This document shows, one piece after another, positions 3,018 to 23,505 of a stretch of 27,586 nucleotides of DNA. Within the stretch, counting starts at the first letter, position 1. Each line of letters starts with the position of its first letter. The position numbers and the translations under genes are program-made. The DNA is from a virus: positions 1 to 27,586 of IMG/VR virus record IMGVR_UViG_3300018080_000506. One strand, written 5' to 3'. Under the pieces are notes generated by a model, which worked only from the letters and a program-made list of their open reading frames with translations, searched no databases and was not told the DNA's origin.

Positions 3018-3184
3018 AAAACGCTCTTTTAAGCGTGTTTAAAGTTTTATGCATGTACGTGTATCAGTTTTGTTTAAAACGAGCTTATTTCTGAGTAGGA
3101 TTCAACATGAATAAACAATTAATCAACAAATGAAAGCAGTATTTGAATGTAATTTTTACAAACACATAACAAAGGGAGAACCGA
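3018..3184 (+). other. non-coding gap with weak terminator-like hairpin
   Basis: This is 167 nt without a supported gene. ACGCT (3021-3025) pairs with AGCGT (3032-3036) around CTTTTA, flanked by AAA and TTT, a weak terminator-like hairpin just after the stop codon. A longer imperfect repeat relates AAGCGTGTTTAAA (about 3031) to TTTAAAACGAGCTT (about 3073). AAAGGGAG before 3185 is the next ribosome binding site. No consensus promoter was found. Confidence 0.35.
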
Positions 3185-4432: not shown

Positions 4433-4792
4433 ATGGCAGATATTATTACATTAAAAGGCAAGAAAGCATTACTTTTGGCAGAAGCTTGTAAACTCAGCAA
4501 AGAGCAAAAGAAAATCAAAGCTCGCTTGGAAAAAATTAAAAAAAAGCTTGATTTGGAAAAGGGTTCTTACATGAACAAGGCAAACGACTCTGTGAATGTT
4601 TCTGAAACTGCCAAAATGTCCCCGATTGATCCCAAAAAAGTATTCATGTATATGAAGAAAAACAAACTTCGTGCCGAGTACTGGAAATGTGTGAAGGTTG
4701 CGTTAAAAGAACTCAGATTGCAGGTTCCGGAAAAAGTTGTTGACAAATGGGAACGAAAGATCAGTACAACCAAACGCTGGACTTTTAAATAG
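4433..4792 (+). CDS. coiled-coil phage protein, function unknown
   Basis: 119 aa. Residues 8-45 are a highly charged helix likely to be a coiled coil (LSKEQKKIKARLEKIKKKLD), followed by a basic C-terminal domain ending TTKRWTFK. The layout (MADIITLKGKKALLLAEA start, then SETAKMSPIDPKKVF) matches a small conserved protein I recall from other phages; its role is not known. GGAG precedes the ATG by 9 nt. It sits between the ribbon-helix-helix gene and the SF2 helicase in one probable operon. Confidence 0.75.
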   Translation: MADIITLKGKKALLLAEACKLSKEQKKIKARLEKIKKKLDLEKGSYMNKANDSVNVSETAKMSPIDPKKVFMYMKKNKLRAEYWKCVKVALKELRLQVPEKVVDKWERKISTTKRWTFK

Positions 4793-4819
4793 CAATACTT
4801 GTCTTGTAAAGAGGATAAA

Positions 4820-6157
4820 ATGACTGTTAAATTATACATAAAAGATGGAGCTTACTGGTATAACTTACCACGATCAGCACGAAAAAAAGTTAAAAAAGAT
4901 CTCACGTTTGATAATCCAGAATATGAAAATGCTAAAAAACAAGGCAAGTATATTGATCCTGATTTTCCAGATAAAATATTTCTCTTTCAAAATGAAGAAA
5001 AAAACTTCTGGACGCCTAAAGGTTATATCTATTATCTGAAAAGATTTTTAGAGAAAAAAGGTATCAAGCTTTTGGTAAAAGATAATTCTTCCAGATTTCA
5101 CAAACTTGATATCGAATTCAATGGGACCTTTCGTGATTACCAGGAAGAACTTATTGAAAAGGCAACTAAATATCCAGTTGGAATGGTTGAAGCACTTACT
5201 GGAGCAGGAAAAACAATCACTGCTTTTGGAATAATCAACAAAATCAAACAGCCTGTTTTGATTCTTGTTCATTCAAAAGAATTGTTGGATCAATGGCAGG
5301 AAGGCATTAAAAAGTTCTTTAATTATGATTGTGGGATTATGGGCGGTGGTAAAGTAGATATCAAAGATATCACCGTTGCCATTATCAATACCGCAGAAAA
5401 ACACGTTGATGATTTATCAAACAAATTTGGAATGTTAATCTGCGATGAAGGTCATCGTGCCGCAGGGAAAAGATTCAGAGATGTGATTAGTAAAGTGGAA
5501 GCAAAATTTCACTATCTGTTGTCAGCCACCCCGTTCAGGAGAGATGGACTGACTCTTATGCTTTATGCATTATTTGGTCCTAAAACAAAAGCTGATGTTA
5601 ATCGTTTAAGAAAAAAGGGATATGTTCTTGTCCCTGACATTATTCGAGTAAGATCAAACTTTAGACATCTATTTATAAACTACTCAAAAATGATCTCTGC
5701 AATGTGTTCTGATGACGATAGAAACAAACGTATAGCGTACTATGCAAACAACGATTTTAAGAAGTATAAGCAAGCACAAATCATCGTATCAGATAGAAAA
5801 AATCATTTAGAGAACATACAACAGCATTTAAAGATAAATTCTGAAATTCTGACAGGCTCAACCTCGAAAAAAGAAAGAAAAAGAATCTCGGATCTTGTAA
5901 AATCTGGCGGTGTCGATTGTTTGTTATCCACTTCTCAATTAATATCTGAGGGATATGATTCTCCAAACTTATCAGCAATAGTTCTTGGCACTCCGATAAG
6001 AGATAAGAAAAAACTTATTCAGGTTATAGGCAGATGCTTGCGTCCATCAGATGGAGCAAATCCAAGAGTTTATGATGTGAGAGATCCGGAAGTAAATGTC
6101 TTGAAATATTCTGGATACGCAAGAGATAAAATATATAAATCGGAATGGGGGAAATAA
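4820..6157 (+). CDS. SF2 DEAD/DEAH-box helicase (UvsW/XPB-like)
   Basis: 445 aa, an ATP-dependent nucleic acid helicase/translocase. The motifs are in order: a Q-like FRDYQ segment, Walker A TGAGKT with K131, motif II DEGH (209-212, a DEAH variant), motif III SAT (235-237), and motif VI QVIGRCLRP (401-409) in the second RecA-like domain. About 95 N-terminal residues precede the helicase core. Phage proteins of this kind (T4 UvsW) remodel replication forks and R-loops, which is the likely role here. I chose the ATG at 4820 because GAGG lies 6 nt upstream; a TTG at 4799 has no good site. The stop overlaps the next start (TAATG). Confidence 0.9.
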   Translation: MTVKLYIKDGAYWYNLPRSARKKVKKDLTFDNPEYENAKKQGKYIDPDFPDKIFLFQNEEKNFWTPKGYIYYLKRFLEKKGIKLLVKDNSSRFHKLDIEFNGTFRDYQEELIEKATKYPVGMVEALTGAGKTITAFGIINKIKQPVLILVHSKELLDQWQEGIKKFFNYDCGIMGGGKVDIKDITVAIINTAEKHVDDLSNKFGMLICDEGHRAAGKRFRDVISKVEAKFHYLLSATPFRRDGLTLMLYALFGPKTKADVNRLRKKGYVLVPDIIRVRSNFRHLFINYSKMISAMCSDDDRNKRIAYYANNDFKKYKQAQIIVSDRKNHLENIQQHLKINSEILTGSTSKKERKRISDLVKSGGVDCLLSTSQLISEGYDSPNLSAIVLGTPIRDKKKLIQVIGRCLRPSDGANPRVYDVRDPEVNVLKYSGYARDKIYKSEWGK

Positions 6158-12811: not shown

Positions 12812-13744
12812 TTGAGAAGACAAAGAGATAAACAAAAAAGAATCCAATTTGATCAAATCGACATCAGAGAAGTTTTGGATGATTTAAATATATATTACAC
12901 TGAATCTGGAAAAAACGTATCTGATGGTTGGATTGGTGTATCGTGTCCTTTTTGTGACGATGATTCAAATCATCTTGGAATTAATCTTGGTGGTAAAAGT
13001 GTTTCTTGTTTCAAATGCGGAACAACTGGAACAATAATTAAATACTTATCTGAGGAAATTGGTTCATACAGCAAAGCTATGAGCATTCTTGGGGATTCTG
13101 TTCCAAGAGAGATGAAAATATTTTCTGAAAAAGAACAGGAAAGAGCTATCAGTGTAAGCTTGCCTGCCGAAGCAACCAGAAAAATAAACAAATATCATGC
13201 TCAATATTTGAATAGTAGAAAATATAGTTGGAAATATTTAACTAAAAAATATGATCTGCATTTTACTGGACCAGTTGGTGATTGGAAAAACAGAATCATA
13301 GTGCCGATTAAAAACAGAGGAAAACTGGTAACGTTCACAAGTGTCAGCATTGAGGAAGATTCAAATTTAAGATACAGACATTTGCCAGATGAAAAATCAA
13401 TAATATCAATAAAACATTCTTTGTATGGATTGGAACACGCAAGAAGAAATCCTATTTGTTGTTTGGTAGAAGGATTGTTTGATAAATATAGAATTGGCGA
13501 TGGTTGTCTGTGTTCGTTTGGAACAAATATTACAGCGGAACAAAAGCACTTGCTTACCAGATTTACTAAAGTTCTGATTTGTTTTGATGGTGATCTGGCT
13601 GGAAGAGTTGCCGCTGAAAAAATAGCCAATGATATTAGTGTTTTCATTGATGTTGAGATACTTTATATACCAGAAGGCTCTGATCCAGATAAACTTGAAA
13701 AGGATGATATTAGGTTCATAAGAAATAAAATGGGAAGGGATTAA
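12812..13744 (+). CDS. dnaG: DnaG-type DNA primase, TTG start
   Basis: 310 aa; makes RNA primers for the phage fork. The N-terminal zinc site is C45xxC48, H54, C66xxC69 (CHC2 type). A TOPRIM core follows, with E220 in VEGLFDK and D259/D261 in CFDGDLAGR, the metal-binding acidic residues. There is no clear C-terminal helicase-interaction domain, so it is shorter than bacterial DnaG (about 600 aa) and close to compact phage primases. TTG at 12812 is chosen because AAAGGA lies 5 nt upstream and no ATG exists before the zinc motif. The weak start may keep the level low. Confidence 0.92.
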   Translation: MRRQRDKQKRIQFDQIDIREVLDDLNIYYTESGKNVSDGWIGVSCPFCDDDSNHLGINLGGKSVSCFKCGTTGTIIKYLSEEIGSYSKAMSILGDSVPREMKIFSEKEQERAISVSLPAEATRKINKYHAQYLNSRKYSWKYLTKKYDLHFTGPVGDWKNRIIVPIKNRGKLVTFTSVSIEEDSNLRYRHLPDEKSIISIKHSLYGLEHARRNPICCLVEGLFDKYRIGDGCLCSFGTNITAEQKHLLTRFTKVLICFDGDLAGRVAAEKIANDISVFIDVEILYIPEGSDPDKLEKDDIRFIRNKMGRD

Positions 13745-13959: not shown

Positions 13960-13988
13960 TTGACAGTATTATAAAAATTTAGTATATT
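13960..13988 (+). promoter_or_regulatory. consensus sigma70 promoter for the initiation genes
   Basis: TTGACA (13960-13965), a 17-bp spacer and TATATT (13983-13988). Transcription should start near 13994-13997, exactly where the structured leader begins. A small dyad TATTAT/ATAATA (13939-13955) lies just upstream and could be an operator. The same boxes and spacing recur at 18087 and 24554. Confidence 0.8.
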
Positions 13989-13992
13989 TGAA

Positions 13993-14171
13993 TTTCATCA
14001 TATTTTTGCTTCGATGTAAGCTGGTTACTTACTGAGCGTTTGATGAAACAAGGGACACATTTGACAGGGTATACGAAAGACTCTTTTATTAATGGTCTTG
14101 ATTGCCCCATGAATTTCCTAACCAGTTATTCACCCTGTCAAGATCGGGACCATTTATAAAGGAGTTTTTTT
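13993..14171 (+). ncRNA. structured leader RNA with pseudoknot and loop-loop complementarity
   Basis: About 178 nt without a gene, starting at the predicted transcription start and ending at the next ATG. Helix P1 is 13993-14000/14041-14048 (8 bp), enclosing hairpin GTAAG(14016-14020)/CTTAC(14028-14032) with loop CTGGTTA. Helix P2 is 14061-14070/14132-14141 (10 bp, TTGACAGGGT with its perfect complement). The terminator helix is 14075-14102/14143-14170. P2 interlocks with the terminator helix as a pseudoknot. The whole CTGGTTA loop is complementary to TAACCAG (14119-14125) in the terminator loop. No known riboswitch class is recognised. Upstream of replication-initiation genes, it is likely an attenuator or antitermination RNA. 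Confidence 0.7.
14075..14171 (+). terminator. attenuator-type terminator containing the next gene's ribosome binding site
   Basis: Bases 14081-14102 pair with 14143-14164: 21 of 22 positions, three G-U pairs and one T-T mismatch at 14090/14155. Pairing continues for six positions (14075-14080 with 14165-14170) through an A-rich/T-run extension. A seven-T tract (14165-14171) directly follows the core stem, and the ATG is at 14172. The 3' arm ends with AAAGGAG (14158-14164), so the helix would both stop transcription and hide the ribosome binding site. Confidence 0.75.
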
Positions 14172-14486
14172 ATGCCAAAATTTATAGAATATCTAACTGA
14201 ACTAAATATCCCTTCTTACAAAATCTGTATGCAATGTACAGACTCTACAATTGATGGAATTATTCTTTCGTGTCTACTTAAACAAATGATTATAAAACAA
14301 GAAGCTGATGGAGTAATTGTACACGATAAAATAATAACTAAAAATTACATAAATCAAAGTGAACTACGATTATTTCAAGAAAATCCTCCTTTGTATATAA
14401 AAACAACAATAATAGCACCAGGAATATGTCAATACACAATTGACATGGACTATCTACTTACTAAATTTAAAAAGAGCATAATCTGA
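14172..14486 (+). CDS. small protein under leader control, function unknown
   Basis: 104 aa, mixed alpha/beta with four cysteines not in CxxC pairs. It is the first gene after the attenuator-like leader, its AAAGGAG lies inside the terminator helix, and its stop overlaps the start of the replisome organizer gene. It could be a regulator or partner of the initiator. No family is recognised. Codon use is strongly AT-biased. Confidence 0.65.
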   Translation: MPKFIEYLTELNIPSYKICMQCTDSTIDGIILSCLLKQMIIKQEADGVIVHDKIITKNYINQSELRLFQENPPLYIKTTIIAPGICQYTIDMDYLLTKFKKSII

Positions 14487-15895
14487 TGCTTATATCAAAA
14501 AAGTTTGCAAGCGGTTTTCAGTCAAGTGAAAATTGTGTTAAAATAAGTCAATCATTTATGATTATGGCTTTAGGAGATATAAAATTTGCATCATACCTAA
14601 GTCAAATATTCTACTGGCACATTCCTTCAAAAGATAATAACAAATACAAATTAAGAGTAAAAATTGATGATGAGTTTTGGCTTGCAAAAGCAGACAAAGA
14701 TTGGTTCAATGAATGTTTTATATCTTTTGATGAAGCAAGAAATGCAAAAAAGATGGCAATAAAACTTGGACTAATAAAAACAATAACAAGAAAATACAAA
14801 GGAAATCCAACAACACACACCACATTAACAGATAAATTTGAAAACGTATTAGAAAAATGTTCTGATTACCTTCTTGATTATGAGTTCCCTGATTCAAAAA
14901 AAGACCTAATTAAAATTGCAAAAAGTCTAAATATCTATAAAAAACAGTTATGTGTTAAAAGCAAAGTTCGTTCTGTGCAAAAAACACATAACGAACTGAG
15001 TAAAAAACACAAAACATTAACAGATACTACTATTACAGATACTACTAAAAAAAGAATTATAAATAATTCTAACGACCCTAAAGGGCCGATAAATAAAAAA
15101 AGCAAGACTTTGATCAAATCAAGAAAATTGACCAAGATTGTTAAAAAGAAAAAGACCGTTGATTCAAAAGAAAACGTTGATATACCAAAACCAAAATATA
15201 AACATTCAATAACTGACCTTAGAAATTATAATGAATTGCTTAGTTATGGAATTACAAAACATAAAAGTCCTAAAGCTAAAAATAATTCCCTTGATAAACT
15301 TCATGCCTTGTTTTCTTCTCAATGTAAAGCACCTTACAAAATAATTGATATTCCCAAAAAATATGATGACTTTGAATGGGATTTAGATACTCTGATTGAG
15401 GTCTTTGAATATCATATGAAACAAGCAGATAAATATGGTAAGAAAAAGATAAGATCTATTGGATCATTTATTTTTCAAGAAGGATTTAATGGGGGCAAAT
15501 CTTGGTCCCCATTATTATTTTGGCATCAGAAAATGAATAGATCGGCTGAGGGTGAATTGACTCAAGAAGGTAAACGTTTCTTGTCTTCACTCAAACGAGC
15601 AGATGTGCATGGCATTGATGACATTGATTCAAGCATACTCAACAGAGTTGCAAAAGCAACTGAGCAAGTTTCCCAAAAATATGTATTTGTCGAAGGCGGA
15701 GAAAGAACAATGTCCTATCCGTTTGGCATCATTGATGTAGTGTCCAAATACATAAAAGAAAAAATGGACAAAAATTATAAATTCAAATTGGTTTATATTA
15801 CAAAAAATGGATTTATTGCTGATGAATTTCTACCTATGGCTAAAGATCGGAATATACTGAAACTGAAAAACAACAATCGGAGCGTACTCGTATGA
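14486..15895 (+). CDS. probable replisome organizer / helicase loader
   Basis: 469 aa. Residues about 10-110 look like the winged-helix DNA-binding domain of phage initiator proteins (FASYLSQIFYWH, RVKIDDEFWLAKADKDWFNE, EARNAKKMAIKLGLIKTI). Residues about 150-245 are a lysine/serine/threonine-rich linker, and a C-terminal domain (265-469) follows. It lies directly upstream of, and overlaps by 4 nt (ATGA), the DnaB-type helicase gene, the usual place of a helicase loader. The expected job is to recognise the origin and deliver the helicase. Repeats inside the linker-coding DNA could be that origin, as in lambda O. The call rests on pattern and context. Confidence 0.65.
   Translation: MLISKKFASGFQSSENCVKISQSFMIMALGDIKFASYLSQIFYWHIPSKDNNKYKLRVKIDDEFWLAKADKDWFNECFISFDEARNAKKMAIKLGLIKTITRKYKGNPTTHTTLTDKFENVLEKCSDYLLDYEFPDSKKDLIKIAKSLNIYKKQLCVKSKVRSVQKTHNELSKKHKTLTDTTITDTTKKRIINNSNDPKGPINKKSKTLIKSRKLTKIVKKKKTVDSKENVDIPKPKYKHSITDLRNYNELLSYGITKHKSPKAKNNSLDKLHALFSSQCKAPYKIIDIPKKYDDFEWDLDTLIEVFEYHMKQADKYGKKKIRSIGSFIFQEGFNGGKSWSPLLFWHQKMNRSAEGELTQEGKRFLSSLKRADVHGIDDIDSSILNRVAKATEQVSQKYVFVEGGERTMSYPFGIIDVVSKYIKEKMDKNYKFKLVYITKNGFIADEFLPMAKDRNILKLKNNNRSVLV
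15016..15118 (+). other. repeat cluster inside the initiator gene; origin candidate
   Basis: Within the AT-rich linker-coding DNA, ATTAACAGATACTACT (15016-15031) is followed at once by ATTACAGATACTACT (15032-15046). A perfect 8-bp inverted repeat AGAATTAT-AA-ATAATTCT lies at 15053-15070, CCCTAAAGGG at 15076-15085, and the palindrome TTTGATCAAA at 15109-15118. A related ACATTAACAGATA lies near 14822. Low-complexity coding could explain part of this. Confidence 0.35.
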
Positions 15896-17409
15896 TCCAG
15901 AGCAGGAACGTATCTGTAACAGAAGAAAAACGCATTTGTACTGGTCTAATAACGTCCAGTGATTTCTTAAAACGAATCATGCCCGTATTTCAACTTGATT
16001 ATTTTGTAAATTCATATTTGAAAAAAGTTGCTTTGTGGTGCACAACGTTTTATGAAGCTCATGAAAGGGCACCTTTCAAACATATTCAGGACATTTACGA
16101 ATCAGAAGCACCAACTTTAAAAGATTCTGAGTCTGAGTTAATTGGTGACTTATTGAGAATGTTATCTGACCAGTATGATCAAGATTCGATCAATGTTGAT
16201 TATCTGGCATCTTCTGCAATTGATTACTTTCGAAAAAGAGAATTAGAAATAATGGTAAACAATATTTCTGTTCTCAAAGAAAAAGGTGATTATGATGAGG
16301 CAGAGGAAGAAATAACAAAGTTCAACAAGGTAACTCTTGATCTTGATTCTGGCTCTTTGATAAACATTGGCGACATTGATCAGGTCACAGAGATATACAA
16401 ACAAAGAGATGAGGAAGACAAGAACTTCTATAATCTTCCCGGAGATCTTGGCAGATACTTAGGAAATTACAAACGTGGCGATGTTGTGGGGTATTACGCT
16501 CCTGCTAAACGTGGTAAAAGTTGGACTCTTGTAGATCATTTCAAACAAGGTGTATTGCAGAAAAAGAAAACATTGTTTTGGTCTATCGAAATGACAAAGA
16601 CAGAAATTCTCCCACGTATCATGAAATCTTTTGAACCTATGGTCACTGAGGCTGGCGAGTATACATACCCAGTTTTTGATTGCGTAAAGAATCAGACAGG
16701 CGAATGCGGTGATCGTGCTTCATCTGTAATAGTTTTAGATGGAGAAGAATTCATTTCAGATCCAACACATAAACCATGTACTATGTGTCAAAGCGGAAGA
16801 GGTCCACATGAATTTGATATGACCGTGTATGTAGATACCATATACAGACAAGCTGACGATATCTTCACAGTAAGCAGAATGATTGAGGGTTCAAAGAGAT
16901 CACCAGGATATAAAGCAATGTTCAATAAGTACGGTAGATTGTCTGTTCATAAAAAATACACTTTAACCTATGACAAGATGATGCGAGATATTGAGGTATT
17001 GAATGCAATAGATGGATTCATACCAGATATTTTCATAATTGATTACGTTGATATTTTGGATATCGGTTCAAGATTCGATGATTATAGGGCAGTTGATGAG
17101 GCATGGAAGTTAATGGCAAAAATGGCTGGTGAATTTAACGTGCTTGTGATAACTGCAACGCAGGCGAATAAAGAAGGACATAAAGCTGGTGTATTAGATT
17201 CAACTCATCAAGCTGGATTTTATGGCAAGAATCAGCATGTCAATATGATGGTTGGTTTAAATCAATCTCCGAGCGAGAAAGAAATGGGTATTATCAAATA
17301 TGGAATCACTGAGGCACGTTCTCAGCATTTCATTCCAGGAAAAACCTGTACAGTGCTACAAGACGTTAAAGCGGGTCAGTCATACCTTGATTCATATTAT
17401 GATTTTTAA
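15892..17409 (+). CDS. dnaB: DnaB-type replicative DNA helicase with zinc insert
   Basis: 505 aa. Helical N-terminal domain (1-150); RecA-like ATPase with Walker A APAKRGKS (GKS 208-210) and Walker B IIDYVD (D384, D387); then a conserved ITATQANKEG segment matching the sensor region. Residues about 260-305 insert C264, C272, C296 and C299, a probable zinc site absent from standard DnaB. It unwinds the fork 5' to 3' as a hexamer. It overlaps the loader gene by 4 nt, and the primase is encoded upstream. The zinc insert may contact the primase or loader. Confidence 0.9.
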   Translation: MIQSRNVSVTEEKRICTGLITSSDFLKRIMPVFQLDYFVNSYLKKVALWCTTFYEAHERAPFKHIQDIYESEAPTLKDSESELIGDLLRMLSDQYDQDSINVDYLASSAIDYFRKRELEIMVNNISVLKEKGDYDEAEEEITKFNKVTLDLDSGSLINIGDIDQVTEIYKQRDEEDKNFYNLPGDLGRYLGNYKRGDVVGYYAPAKRGKSWTLVDHFKQGVLQKKKTLFWSIEMTKTEILPRIMKSFEPMVTEAGEYTYPVFDCVKNQTGECGDRASSVIVLDGEEFISDPTHKPCTMCQSGRGPHEFDMTVYVDTIYRQADDIFTVSRMIEGSKRSPGYKAMFNKYGRLSVHKKYTLTYDKMMRDIEVLNAIDGFIPDIFIIDYVDILDIGSRFDDYRAVDEAWKLMAKMAGEFNVLVITATQANKEGHKAGVLDSTHQAGFYGKNQHVNMMVGLNQSPSEKEMGIIKYGITEARSQHFIPGKTCTVLQDVKAGQSYLDSYYDF

Positions 17410-18725: not shown

Positions 18726-19832
18726 ATGTCTGATAATATAATTTCTCATAATTATATTAAAAAAACTTCCCTTGTTAAGTTAGATAAATTAGCAAGGGAA
18801 GTTTCGTATGATTATGACATAGAATTTGACGGCAAAAACACTTTCAGCATTGATAATATTCCTGAGTTTCCCAAAGACTTTAAAGTTGGATTGATAGTCG
18901 GTGCATCTGGTAGTGGCAAAAGTCTGATATTAAAGAAATTCTTTGGAAGACCAAAAATATTAAAATGGAATAGAGAAAAATCAATTGTTTCTCATTTCAA
19001 ATCCAAAAAGATAGCTGAAAAAAAGCTATTCGCAGTTGGTTTAAATTCAATTAAAACTTGGTTAAGACCCTATCACGTTTTATCTAACGGCGAAAAATTC
19101 AGGGCATCTCTTGCAAGACAATTAAAATCAAATATGGTAGTTGATGAATTCACATCTGTTATTGACAGAACAGTGGCAAAATCAGCCTGCAATTCCATGA
19201 GTAAGTACATAAAAAAGAACAAGCTAAGTGGAATAGTTTTTGCTACTTGTCATTATGATATTATTGAATGGATACAACCGACCTGGGTATATGATGTGAG
19301 TACAAATGAATTGTATTCTGGGAGGTGGCTTCAACGACCTGAAATTGAAATCCGAATATATGAGGGAGATCACTCCTCGTGGAAGATTTTTAGAGAGCAT
19401 CATTATTTAAGTGGTGAAATACTAAAATCTTCCAAAGTATTTCTTGCCTTTTTTAACGACATTTTGGTCGGGTTAATTGCTGTCTGTACTTTACCATCTG
19501 GCACTGTAAAACATGCTTGGAGAGAACACAGAATCGTGATTTTACCTGACTATCAAGGTTTTGGCATAGGCATACGACTGTCAGAAAAGATTGCGGAACT
19601 TTATGTAAGCAAAGGTCACAGATATTTTGCCAAAACATCTCACAGAAAGCTTGGCGTATATAGAAATCAATCTGATAAATGGCTGGCAACAAGCAGTAAC
19701 GGTTCCACAAACTCAGCACCAAATAAATTCTTTAAGCACTGGAAAACTTCTAACGGTAGATTGTGCTTTTCGCATGAATTCATTTATAAAAAGGTAATAA
19801 AAAATGATAGTAAACAGAAAACTTTTTTGTGA
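18726..19832 (+). CDS. ABC-type ATPase fused to GNAT acetyltransferase domain
   Basis: 368 aa. N-terminal ABC ATPase: Walker A GASGSGKS (59-66, K65), signature LSNGE (119-123), Walker B VVDE (D140, E141), D-loop SVIDR and H-loop H176. Only about 55 residues separate Walker A from the signature, so the helical subdomain is reduced. Residues about 195-340 form a GNAT-like domain with the acetyl-CoA loop YQGFGIG (276-282). This matches the protein class 'ABC ATPase fused to predicted acetyltransferase' (COG2401-type). There are no membrane segments, so it is not a transporter. A nucleic-acid-modifying role is possible. Paired hairpins lie in its first 27 codons, and its ribosome binding site is weak. 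Confidence 0.8.
   Translation: MSDNIISHNYIKKTSLVKLDKLAREVSYDYDIEFDGKNTFSIDNIPEFPKDFKVGLIVGASGSGKSLILKKFFGRPKILKWNREKSIVSHFKSKKIAEKKLFAVGLNSIKTWLRPYHVLSNGEKFRASLARQLKSNMVVDEFTSVIDRTVAKSACNSMSKYIKKNKLSGIVFATCHYDIIEWIQPTWVYDVSTNELYSGRWLQRPEIEIRIYEGDHSSWKIFREHHYLSGEILKSSKVFLAFFNDILVGLIAVCTLPSGTVKHAWREHRIVILPDYQGFGIGIRLSEKIAELYVSKGHRYFAKTSHRKLGVYRNQSDKWLATSSNGSTNSAPNKFFKHWKTSNGRLCFSHEFIYKKVIKNDSKQKTFL
18734..18804 (+). repeat. two consecutive perfect hairpins in the 5' end of the ABC-GNAT gene
   Basis: Hairpin 1: TAATATAATT (18734-18743) / AATTATATTA (18750-18759), 10 bp, 6-nt loop. Hairpin 2: 18763-18778 / 18789-18804, 16 bp with one G-U, 10-nt loop; core AAACTTCCCTTG with its exact complement. 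On the minus strand hairpin 2 is followed by seven T, a textbook intrinsic terminator. On the plus strand it has only a short T tail, so it may instead control translation or be an RNase III site. Confidence 0.75.
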
Positions 19833-20829: not shown

Positions 20830-23505
20830 ATGGGCTTTTTTACATCCACAGAAATAAGTCGAAAAACTGAGGTAAAAGTTGATCCTGATCAACTTGAAGC
20901 AGATTGCTTAAAATGCCAATTATATAAACGTTGTGACTCTCCCAAGATAAAAGTTTCTGGGGAGGGTCGCAAAGAAATATTAATCATCAATAGTTTTCCT
21001 ACTCCGGAAGAAGATGAATATAATGCAACCATCATTGGAGAAGCTGGAAAAATTCTACAAAAAGCCTTAGCCAGTATTAATGTCTCACTCAGTCGAGATT
21101 GCTGGAAAATGCATTCGGTAAGTTGCAAACCTCCCATGGGTAGAATCCCATCCCATAAAGAAATAAAATGCTGTCATCCAAATGTGGAAAAAGCAATTAG
21201 AACTCTGAAACCAAAATTAGTTCTGCTTTTGGGTCCTATTGCAATCACATCTTTGTTTGGAGAAAACTTTTCAAATCGTAAAATTGATAGATGGCGATCA
21301 TACGAAATACCAGATTCAAAATCCAATTGTTTTGTAATGTGTTTACATGCTCCCTATCAGCTTTTACGTGAGCAAAAGAATAAAAATCTTCATTCTGTCT
21401 TTGAGCGAGACATAAAAAGAGTATCGCACTGTCTAAAACGTTCGTTTGAGCCGAAAATAAACTATGAGAAATATGTTACTATACTTCGAGAGTTTAAAGC
21501 TGTTAAAAGCTTCTTAAAACGAATTCTAAGAAGAAAGCAAAAAATTGCATTTGATTATGAAACGACTGGCTTAAAACCATTTCGTGCAGGACATAAAATA
21601 GTAACAATTGGTGTTGCTGTTGACGCAAAAAAAGCGTATGCATTTCCTTTTGATTACAAATCATATTGGACAAAAAAAGAATTAAGAACTATAAAAAGAT
21701 TGTGGGCAAAGATTCTGCTTGATGAAGAAATCAAAAAGATGGCTCATAATCATAAGTTTGAAGATATGTGGTCAACTGTTCGTGGTGGTGCAAGACCAGT
21801 AAATTGGCACTGGGACACAATGATGGCAGAACACATCATAGATAACCGCAGAGCATCAACCGGGTTAAAGTTTCAAACATTTGTCAGATACGGTGTTAGA
21901 CCTTATGACGAGGTAATAAAACCATTTCTTAAATCAAAAGATGGCGAATTCAATACAGTTGAAAAGGCTCCATTCAAAGAACTGCTGATCTATAATGGTC
22001 TTGACTGTATTTTTCTTTGGATGCTTTATAAGGATCAAACCGCATATCTGCCTCGTATGAAGCGAATGTTTAAAGCATACAAATTCTTTATGAAAGGTAC
22101 TCATACAATGAGTGGAATTCAGTTAAATGGAATCCACACTAATATGAAATACTTCGATGAAACTGATAAAAAATTGGAAATCAGAATCAAGAAGTTAAAG
22201 AAATATCTTTCTAATGGTCGTGAAGCAAAAAAATTCAAAAAGAAATTCCATAGAGAGTTGAACATTGGCTCTAATCAAGATCTTGGTAAATTATTTTATG
22301 AAGTACTTGGCAAAGAACCTGTTTTAACTGAAAATGGAAATTATAAAACAGATAAGCCCACTTTAGAAAGATTGAATCTTCCATTTGTAGATAAGCTGAC
22401 AGACATGAAACGTCTTGAAAAAGCAAAAGGAACTTATCTGGCTCAGTTTGCAAGAGAGACTTATAAAGGAACAATAAATCCATTCTTTGATCTTCATATT
22501 CCAGTAAGTTATCGTGGAAGTAGTTCAAAACCAAACTTTCAGAATCTTCCAAAACGAGATCCAGAAATTGGCAACTTGGTAAGAATGGGTATTATACCAA
22601 GACCGAACTCTGTAATAAGTGAAATTGACTTTTCTGGTGCAGAGGTTATAACTTCTGCCACATATCATCATGATCCACAATTCATTCATGATATTACCGA
22701 AGGTGATATGCATAGAGATTTGGCAATAGATCTGTTTATGTTGCCATACAAACTTATGGACAAGACAAGGTCCGAATACAATGCAGATCAAATAAAATGC
22801 ATCAAAAAGATTCGATTCTTTGCCAAAAATGGCTGGACATTTGCTCAGTTCTACGGTGATTGGTTCGGATCATGCGCTCTAACTCTTTGGGAGTCAGTAG
22901 TTGAAGCTGGTTTAAAACTTCCAAACGGTCAGACTGTCAGAGAATGGCTTGAAGAAAAAGGCATTTATGAATTGGGCGAAGTAATAGATGGACAGCCCAC
23001 AGAAGGCAGTTTTATGGAACACTGCAAAAATGTCGAAGAACAAATGTGGAATGAAAGATTCCCATTATACACTCAGTGGAAGAAAGATATTGTAGAATTC
23101 TATCAGATGCATGGATTTATCGAAACTCATCTTGGGTTTAGATTTCAGGGATATATGGATAGAAAACAATGCACAAACTTCCCAATTCAGGGAACATCAT
23201 TTCATTTGCTTGTATTCACTTTAATTGAAGTTGAAAAATTCATTAAAAAGCATAATCTCAAAACAAAACTGATTGGTCAGATTCATGATAGTTGTATTGC
23301 TGATGTTCCATTAGATGAAATAGTTTTCTATCATGAAGGTGTTAGAAAAATTGTTGCTGATTTAAAGAAAACATTTAAATGGCTCACAATACCCATGGAA
23401 ATTGAAATCGAACTGTCTAAACCAAAAGAAGACGGTGGAAATTTCTCAGCTATGGTTGAATATACAATGGACGAAATAAAAGAAATGTATCAGGAGGCCG
23501 CATGA
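20830..23505 (+). CDS. polA: family A DNA polymerase with N-terminal UDG-like domain and 3'-5' exonuclease
   Basis: 891 aa. Residues 20-190 resemble family 4 uracil-DNA glycosylases: C26/C29, C99 in SCKPPMGRIP and C114/C115 could hold a 4Fe-4S cluster, and HAPYQLL (H173) matches the HPSxLL motif. The GEAPG motif is replaced by NSFPTPEED, so glycosylase activity is doubtful. The exonuclease has DYETTG (D242, E244), N307/D312 and Y388xxxD392 (DEDDy). The polymerase has motif A D600 (DFSGAE), motif B R662xxxK666 with Y675 one residue further out than usual, and motif C HDS (819-821). SPO1-type phage polymerases share this layout. It lies directly after the clamp gene. Confidence 0.93.
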   Translation: MGFFTSTEISRKTEVKVDPDQLEADCLKCQLYKRCDSPKIKVSGEGRKEILIINSFPTPEEDEYNATIIGEAGKILQKALASINVSLSRDCWKMHSVSCKPPMGRIPSHKEIKCCHPNVEKAIRTLKPKLVLLLGPIAITSLFGENFSNRKIDRWRSYEIPDSKSNCFVMCLHAPYQLLREQKNKNLHSVFERDIKRVSHCLKRSFEPKINYEKYVTILREFKAVKSFLKRILRRKQKIAFDYETTGLKPFRAGHKIVTIGVAVDAKKAYAFPFDYKSYWTKKELRTIKRLWAKILLDEEIKKMAHNHKFEDMWSTVRGGARPVNWHWDTMMAEHIIDNRRASTGLKFQTFVRYGVRPYDEVIKPFLKSKDGEFNTVEKAPFKELLIYNGLDCIFLWMLYKDQTAYLPRMKRMFKAYKFFMKGTHTMSGIQLNGIHTNMKYFDETDKKLEIRIKKLKKYLSNGREAKKFKKKFHRELNIGSNQDLGKLFYEVLGKEPVLTENGNYKTDKPTLERLNLPFVDKLTDMKRLEKAKGTYLAQFARETYKGTINPFFDLHIPVSYRGSSSKPNFQNLPKRDPEIGNLVRMGIIPRPNSVISEIDFSGAEVITSATYHHDPQFIHDITEGDMHRDLAIDLFMLPYKLMDKTRSEYNADQIKCIKKIRFFAKNGWTFAQFYGDWFGSCALTLWESVVEAGLKLPNGQTVREWLEEKGIYELGEVIDGQPTEGSFMEHCKNVEEQMWNERFPLYTQWKKDIVEFYQMHGFIETHLGFRFQGYMDRKQCTNFPIQGTSFHLLVFTLIEVEKFIKKHNLKTKLIGQIHDSCIADVPLDEIVFYHEGVRKIVADLKKTFKWLTIPMEIEIELSKPKEDGGNFSAMVEYTMDEIKEMYQEAA

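Follow-up and report, generated by a model that had tools for sequence, protein, structure and literature searches.

What does a structured RNA leader do directly in front of the replication-initiation genes of an uncultured phage? The question is raised by a 27.6-kb IMG/VR phage fragment (IMGVR_UViG_3300018080_000506; 27,586 nucleotides, this whole stretch being called the window), for which an original prediction, made from the letters alone, had described an interlocking pseudoknot with loop-loop complementarity at 13993-14154. We read the leader as a cis-acting attenuator of the replication-initiation operon, a reading to which we give a probability of roughly one half, and the leader is probably a member of an unrecognised class of RNA switches for starting phage DNA replication. 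Its structure is well supported; that it switches, and what triggers it, we infer.

Architecture of the leader and its genomic setting

The genes around the leader all lie on the + strand, in the order DnaG-like primase (12812-13744), 62-aa ORF, leader, 104-aa ORF (14172-14486), 469-aa ORF (14486-15895) and DnaB-like helicase (15892-17409), with a clamp-like protein, a family A polymerase and a clamp loader farther downstream. The 104-aa ORF, the first gene under the leader, has no Pfam or PHROG match; small winged-helix-like proteins encoded at the corresponding position in two other phage loci, L005 and L009, can be aligned with it at 25-28% identity. Two further genes of the window were noted for their domains: the family A DNA polymerase (20830-23505) bears an N-terminal uracil-DNA-glycosylase-like domain, and a single ORF at 18726-19832 combines weak ATPase-type matches with a GNAT acetyltransferase domain (phrog_11143).

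The leader is about 175 nt long and spans the interval from a promoter to the ATG at 14172, all of its elements being on the + strand. The promoter, of sigma70 type (TTGACA-17 nt-TATATT, 13960-13988), has 11 of 12 consensus bases, and its position predicts an RNA start at about 13993-13996, where the original prediction had its interval begin. The 5' domain (13993-14048) consists of an outer stem, P0, formed by TTTCATCA (13993-14000) and TGATGAAA (14041-14048), which encloses the hairpin P1 (GTAAG 14016-14020, CTTAC 14028-14032). The complete 7-nt loop of P1, CUGGUUA (14021-14027, CTGGTTA in the DNA), complements UAACCAG at 14119-14125; this loop-loop contact, K, can be extended to 9 pairs, one of them G-U. 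Downstream of the 5' domain lies the 5' strand of a second helix, S1 (14061-14070, UUGACAGGGU), whose exact complement (14132-14141, ACCCUGUCAA) gives a perfect 10-bp helix, TTGACAGGGT/ACCCTGTCAA. The arrangement of S1 is found once in the window and in 0 of 100 shuffles. All of the pairings first described, including the 10 bp of S1 and the extension of K to 9 pairs, are thus present at their described positions.

The 3' strands of both K and S1 lie in the loop of a 28-bp hairpin, S2 (5' arm 14075-14103, 3' arm 14142-14170), with that of S1 adjoining the 3' arm. The 3' arm contains the Shine-Dalgarno sequence AAAGGAG (14158-14164), and S2 ends in a tract of seven U (14165-14171) directly before the ATG. 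By this layout S2 is both terminator-like and a blocker of the ribosome site, and S1 and K link its loop with the RNA upstream. The terminator helix of the original prediction, AATGGTC/GACCATT, is real; it is only the upper part of the 28-bp stem, which does not end at 14154, and its overlap with the Shine-Dalgarno sequence and start codon was therefore missed. S2 scores 49; in 12 dinucleotide-shuffled versions of the whole window the highest scores are 26.5-33.5. The minimum free energy (MFE) of the originally described segment alone is modest (z = -1.45), which leaves the decision to S2 as a whole and to comparison with relatives.

Compensatory change in close relatives

Four close relatives of the leader were compared. 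In L002 (78% identical), L012 and L016 it occupies the corresponding position behind the primase gene; L015 is incomplete, holding only the 5' two thirds. The pairs of K are CUGGUUA/UAACCAG in the window, UUGAUAA/UUAUCAG in L002, UUGAUUA/UAAUCAA in L012 and UUGGUUA/UAACCAG in L015; L016 has only 5 of 7 pairs, and its P1/K segment overlaps itself and is to be disregarded. The S1 5' strands across the subfamily are UUGACAGGGU, UUGACAGG, GAAUGAUUA and UUGAAAGGG, each with a matching partner. Changes on both sides affect 9 of 13 pairs of P0 and P1 (five sequences including the window), 2 of 7 pairs of K and 6 of 11 columns of S1 (four complete members); a count without L015 likewise shows compensatory change. 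Paired cells amount to 94.8%, against 25.8-46.6% with the partners slid, in a covariation drawn from four to five sequences whose helices were cut and aligned to the structure by hand, which inflates the paired percentage. To judge from these sequences, it is well supported that P0, P1, K and S1 are kept in the relatives by compensatory change, and the interlocking structure first described is in this respect real.

In the subfamily S1 and K vary, but the 12 upper pairs of S2 hardly change, so that this part of S2 is either under an extra constraint or simply well preserved. The same contrast speaks for a rival more exotic than RNase III cleavage (below), in which the terminated leader would act in trans, like the CI RNA of P4 or IsrK: its S1 or K strands would pair with leaders still being transcribed from phages of its own type and would set their termination. 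The outcome would be superinfection immunity or copy control, with specificity set by rapid compensatory change in S1 and K. In P4, RNA-directed premature termination keeps the phage's own replication genes off, and one promoter gives both a short and a read-through form of IsrK (PMC4825925). The pairings of the leader are also met in cis, however, which suffices, and free cis helices drift alike; we therefore hold action in trans to be improbable and keep to the cis-acting attenuator.

The remnant in L015 (6404-6566) retains the 5' domain, the kissing loop and the S1 5' strand and has lost the 3' strands of S1 and S2; the sequence 3' of it resembles the region of the window's 469-aa ORF. In the window, L002, L012 and L016 the leader and the first codons that follow are alike (MPKF, MPQF, MSKF and MFID, respectively) and the genes after them differ, as if genes had been exchanged just 3' of the leader. 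A DNA pattern scan for more members of the subfamily returned, beyond the known ones, two chance matches within coding sequence, and a second BLAST match in the contig of L034 was likewise rejected as chance, lying in a polymerase-like gene.

A wider class of hairpins after the primase gene

With the primase as anchor gene, more than 70 further phage loci were retrieved by primase alignments and searched for hairpins using Watson-Crick pairs only, in a strand-neutral manner. The 113 kb that lie less than 1.5 kb past the primase hold 20 strong hairpins and the remaining 582 kb hold 2, which makes them about fifty-fold denser after the primase; one of the two outliers is the L007 member, 1.8 kb from its primase. 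We count 29 loci in the class, 22 by stem score and 7 added on inspection, and in most of them the hairpin lies no more than 1.5 kb past the primase gene. About two dozen further uncultured phages have this design at the equivalent position, in unrelated sequence. The suggestion of a new phage riboregulator has to be widened from one phage to a recurring class. Replication initiation PHROGs are matched by the next or second gene in L003, L009, L012, L036 and L047. A covariance-model search, proposed with the original prediction as a check, was made with a model of four subfamily members, which finds L003, L007 and L009 (E 4e-4 to 1e-2 in 669 kb) independently of the way in which they were first found; three member-bearing contigs searched with the model gave only one + sense copy at E <0.01. 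Among annotated phage records there is no DNA-level relative of the leader, and ten such records with distant primases hold no comparable hairpin.

The loops of these hairpins are also tied to upstream sequence. When each S2 loop is set against its own 130 upstream bases, the best helix beats those of loop shuffles (Fisher p 3e-15, first 22 loci), and in 14 of the 29 loci the locus's own upstream sequence beats that of every other locus, compared with 3 of 29 in a control with downstream sequence. The helices reach 14 bp in L032, L029 and L048 and 11 bp in L055 and L152; among the 29 loci, L054, L143 and L111 lack this signal. These results bear on whether S2 is an ordinary operon-end terminator whose loop complementarity arose by chance, as the T-runs of most members and the modest MFE z-score of the originally described segment would allow. 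Against this, S1 exceeds shuffled and mismatched controls, the helices show compensatory changes and a promoter precedes S2, and we regard such a coincidence as very unlikely.

The S2 stem spans 13-39 positions with a median of 28, and lies between 23 and 31 in 22 of 29 loci, under a score threshold that favours long stems; its sequences are unrelated between subgroups. This constancy of span despite unrelated sequences, together with a U tract that is not universal among members, is what speaks for the main rival to the attenuator, in which S2 is a candidate substrate of host RNase III. Cutting of the 28-bp stem would free or destroy the ribosome site, so that expression of the replication genes would be tied to host RNase III activity, with S1 and K gating the cut. 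For RNase III a duplex of at least about 22 nt is needed as target, and transcripts of lambda, T7 and T3 are among its substrates (PMC5371410); the median S2 duplex, at 28 bp, exceeds this, and cutting by the enzyme would account for so long a stem. However, most members also bear rightly placed terminator U tracts, and the preference of the threshold for long stems weakens the argument from length. We see RNase III cleavage as possible but rather unlikely, and attenuation as the better reading.

An intrinsic terminator, that is a stem followed by a U tract, is found in the window (U7), and a T-run of at least 4 stands at the end of S2 in 21 of 29 loci. In the other 8 of 29 it is absent, and termination is thus not a function shared everywhere. 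S2 is, in addition, far longer than a terminator needs, and more constant in length. The members lacking T-runs and the constant long stem argue that attenuation is not the whole story.

The non-Watson-Crick cells of S2 indicate in which form the element acts: G-U outnumbers A-C by 59 to 7 (p 7e-10 for the first 48:5), and this excess means that selection acts on the + strand in single-stranded form, for which RNA is the natural reading. Promoters on the + strand immediately 5' of the element outscore shuffles in 8 of 29 loci at p<=0.03, and on the minus strand of the 29 loci there is no promoter signal, the scores being as in shuffles (mean p 0.60). The G-U bias also weighs on the proposal that the element belongs, as RNA or as DNA, to a replication origin, which its transcript might for example open or prime, gene control then being secondary. 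This would suit the adjoining primase, initiator and helicase genes, the long hairpin and the members without U tracts. Opposed to it are the selection on a single strand of + sense, the Shine-Dalgarno sequence and U tract that fall exactly in the hairpin, and L015, where the loss of the S1 and S2 3' strands argues against an indispensable origin, although this is one locus and perhaps an assembly fault. The GC skew of the window has no lasting sign change at the element. A role as an origin part is, in our estimate, quite unlikely.

Several members have further features of note. Upstream of the primase gene, L042 carries two type II hammerhead ribozymes (275-345 and 1749-1814; Rfam RF02276). 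L143 has, besides its hairpin after the gene, a second near-perfect 27-bp hairpin inside the primase coding sequence (4739-4836). In L025, L028, L029, L032, L033 and L042 a short arginine-rich motif (for example GSGKISRR or RISRR) lies near the start of the gene that follows the element, possibly an RNA-binding stretch for autoregulation. In L005, UUUGGUGAACG (3174-3184) pairs with UGUUCGCCAAA in the S2 loop, a pairing that resembles the rUUGGCG loop motif of the Inc RNA of IncI plasmids, possibly by coincidence.

Folding order and a proposed mechanism

The order in which the helices can form was followed by folding growing prefixes of the transcript, a calculation that ignores pseudoknots and from which the rows for L012 and L009, whose S1 coordinates were out of register, were left out. 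In the window, S1 is part of the MFE structure from 14141 to 14162 and is overtaken by S2 at about 14163, as the original prediction had anticipated in having the 10-bp helix form first. The takeover falls where the U tract begins, which places the decision at the termination point; the same balance at the U tract is seen in L032 and L033, and S2 wins earlier than this in L002, L016, L028 and L029. The 3' strand of S1 is always transcribed ahead of the 3' arm of S2.

The idea that S1 makes a full S2 sterically impossible proved too strong. In a rod model with S1 formed, the basal S2 pairs that must open number 2 in the window, 4 in L012 and 8 in L016, so that within the subfamily only 2-8 pairs are affected, and most other loci require no basal opening. 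The basal pairs hold the U tract and, past these, the Shine-Dalgarno sequence. Since S1 and nearly all of S2 are able to coexist in this model, their exclusion rests on kinetics and topology.

Building on what is observed here, namely the parts and their order, their conservation by compensatory change, their recurrence before replication genes and their action as + strand RNA, we propose the following course for the attenuator. RNA polymerase would initiate at the promoter at 13960-13988, and the 5' hairpin would fold first. The single strand at 14061-14070 would then pair with the newly transcribed section of the S2 loop, forming S1 with the assistance of K. As the S1/K fold would be complete before the 3' arm of S2 is made, the long hairpin would be held off while the polymerase crosses the U tract, giving read-through and leaving the Shine-Dalgarno sequence free; S1 may in this manner act as an antiterminator, as first suggested. 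Should S1/K be slow, displaced or competed away, S2 would zip through the Shine-Dalgarno sequence and U tract, and transcription would stop just before the ATG; an S2 formed after read-through would shut off translation. S1/K and S2 would thus be alternatives, with control in the direction given.

Comparison with known systems

The expectation that the leader would fall into no known RNA class agrees with Rfam 15, in which no family reaches its gathering score and there is no credible match to the leader at E<=10. A permissive scan of the leader gave sub-threshold matches to unrelated families only, the relatives' leaders have no Rfam match, and a literature search found no description of this leader class.

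The closest likeness is to plasmid leaders. As in the IncI-alpha, IncB and IncL/M rep leaders, in which a pseudoknot switch controls repZ or repA, the phage element is the leader of a replication gene, and the loop of a hairpin finds its partner far downstream, in overlap with the control of translation start; here the upstream loop of K pairs near the rep start, with compensatory changes. Unlike these, the phage leader has no leader peptide, a consistent short ORF led by a Shine-Dalgarno sequence being absent from the leaders, and no antisense promoter signal, and its target lies in the terminator loop. With the pT181 repC attenuator it shares a terminator directly ahead of the replication gene and an upstream competing helix; in the phage this helix pairs with the terminator loop rather than an arm. 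The plasmid analogy of the original prediction holds for the replication-gene setting and fails for pT181-type countertranscripts, for which the 29 loci have no promoter signal. The leader works like plasmid rep leaders, without two tested defining features, the antisense promoter and the leader peptide.

Phage systems offer partial parallels. P4 immunity (CI RNA, seqA/seqC) and IsrK likewise place replication genes behind RNA-controlled termination, and their short and read-through forms are a candidate likeness; the present leader differs in having no Rfam match and in being a single leader element, for which action in trans is only a candidate. The lambda N and cIII leaders, targets of RNase III, also have a long duplex beside the start of an early gene, but lack the pseudoknot, kissing contact and U tract of the present leader, in which an RNase III site is putative. 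In T4, the leader of gene 32, a replication gene, also contains a pseudoknot; the present element has another topology, is much larger and has no known protein ligand. The put RNA of HK022, a phage RNA opposing termination, modifies polymerase for distant terminators, whereas here the terminator belongs to the same structure. We see in it a variation on this known kind of leader, a proposed attenuator whose terminator loop takes part in a pseudoknot.

Implications for phage replication control

To our knowledge, RNA switches before replication initiators are textbook in plasmids but seldom figure in accounts of large virulent phages. In the present set, many uncultured phages that are only distantly related share one architecture ahead of their initiator genes, and the sequence of the element is almost free to change, so that sequence searches and Rfam miss the class. 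That these leaders form a widespread undescribed class of phage RNA, in which a hairpin of about 28 bp under the control of a loop-upstream pseudoknot acts in trans between leaders of the same type and gives RNA-coded specificity of copy control or superinfection immunity, as in plasmids, is a speculative extension that we consider improbable. The leader of the window makes it possible to test a pseudoknot set in a terminator loop, and, if the attenuator reading is confirmed, these phages would time or dose the initiation of their replication with RNA.
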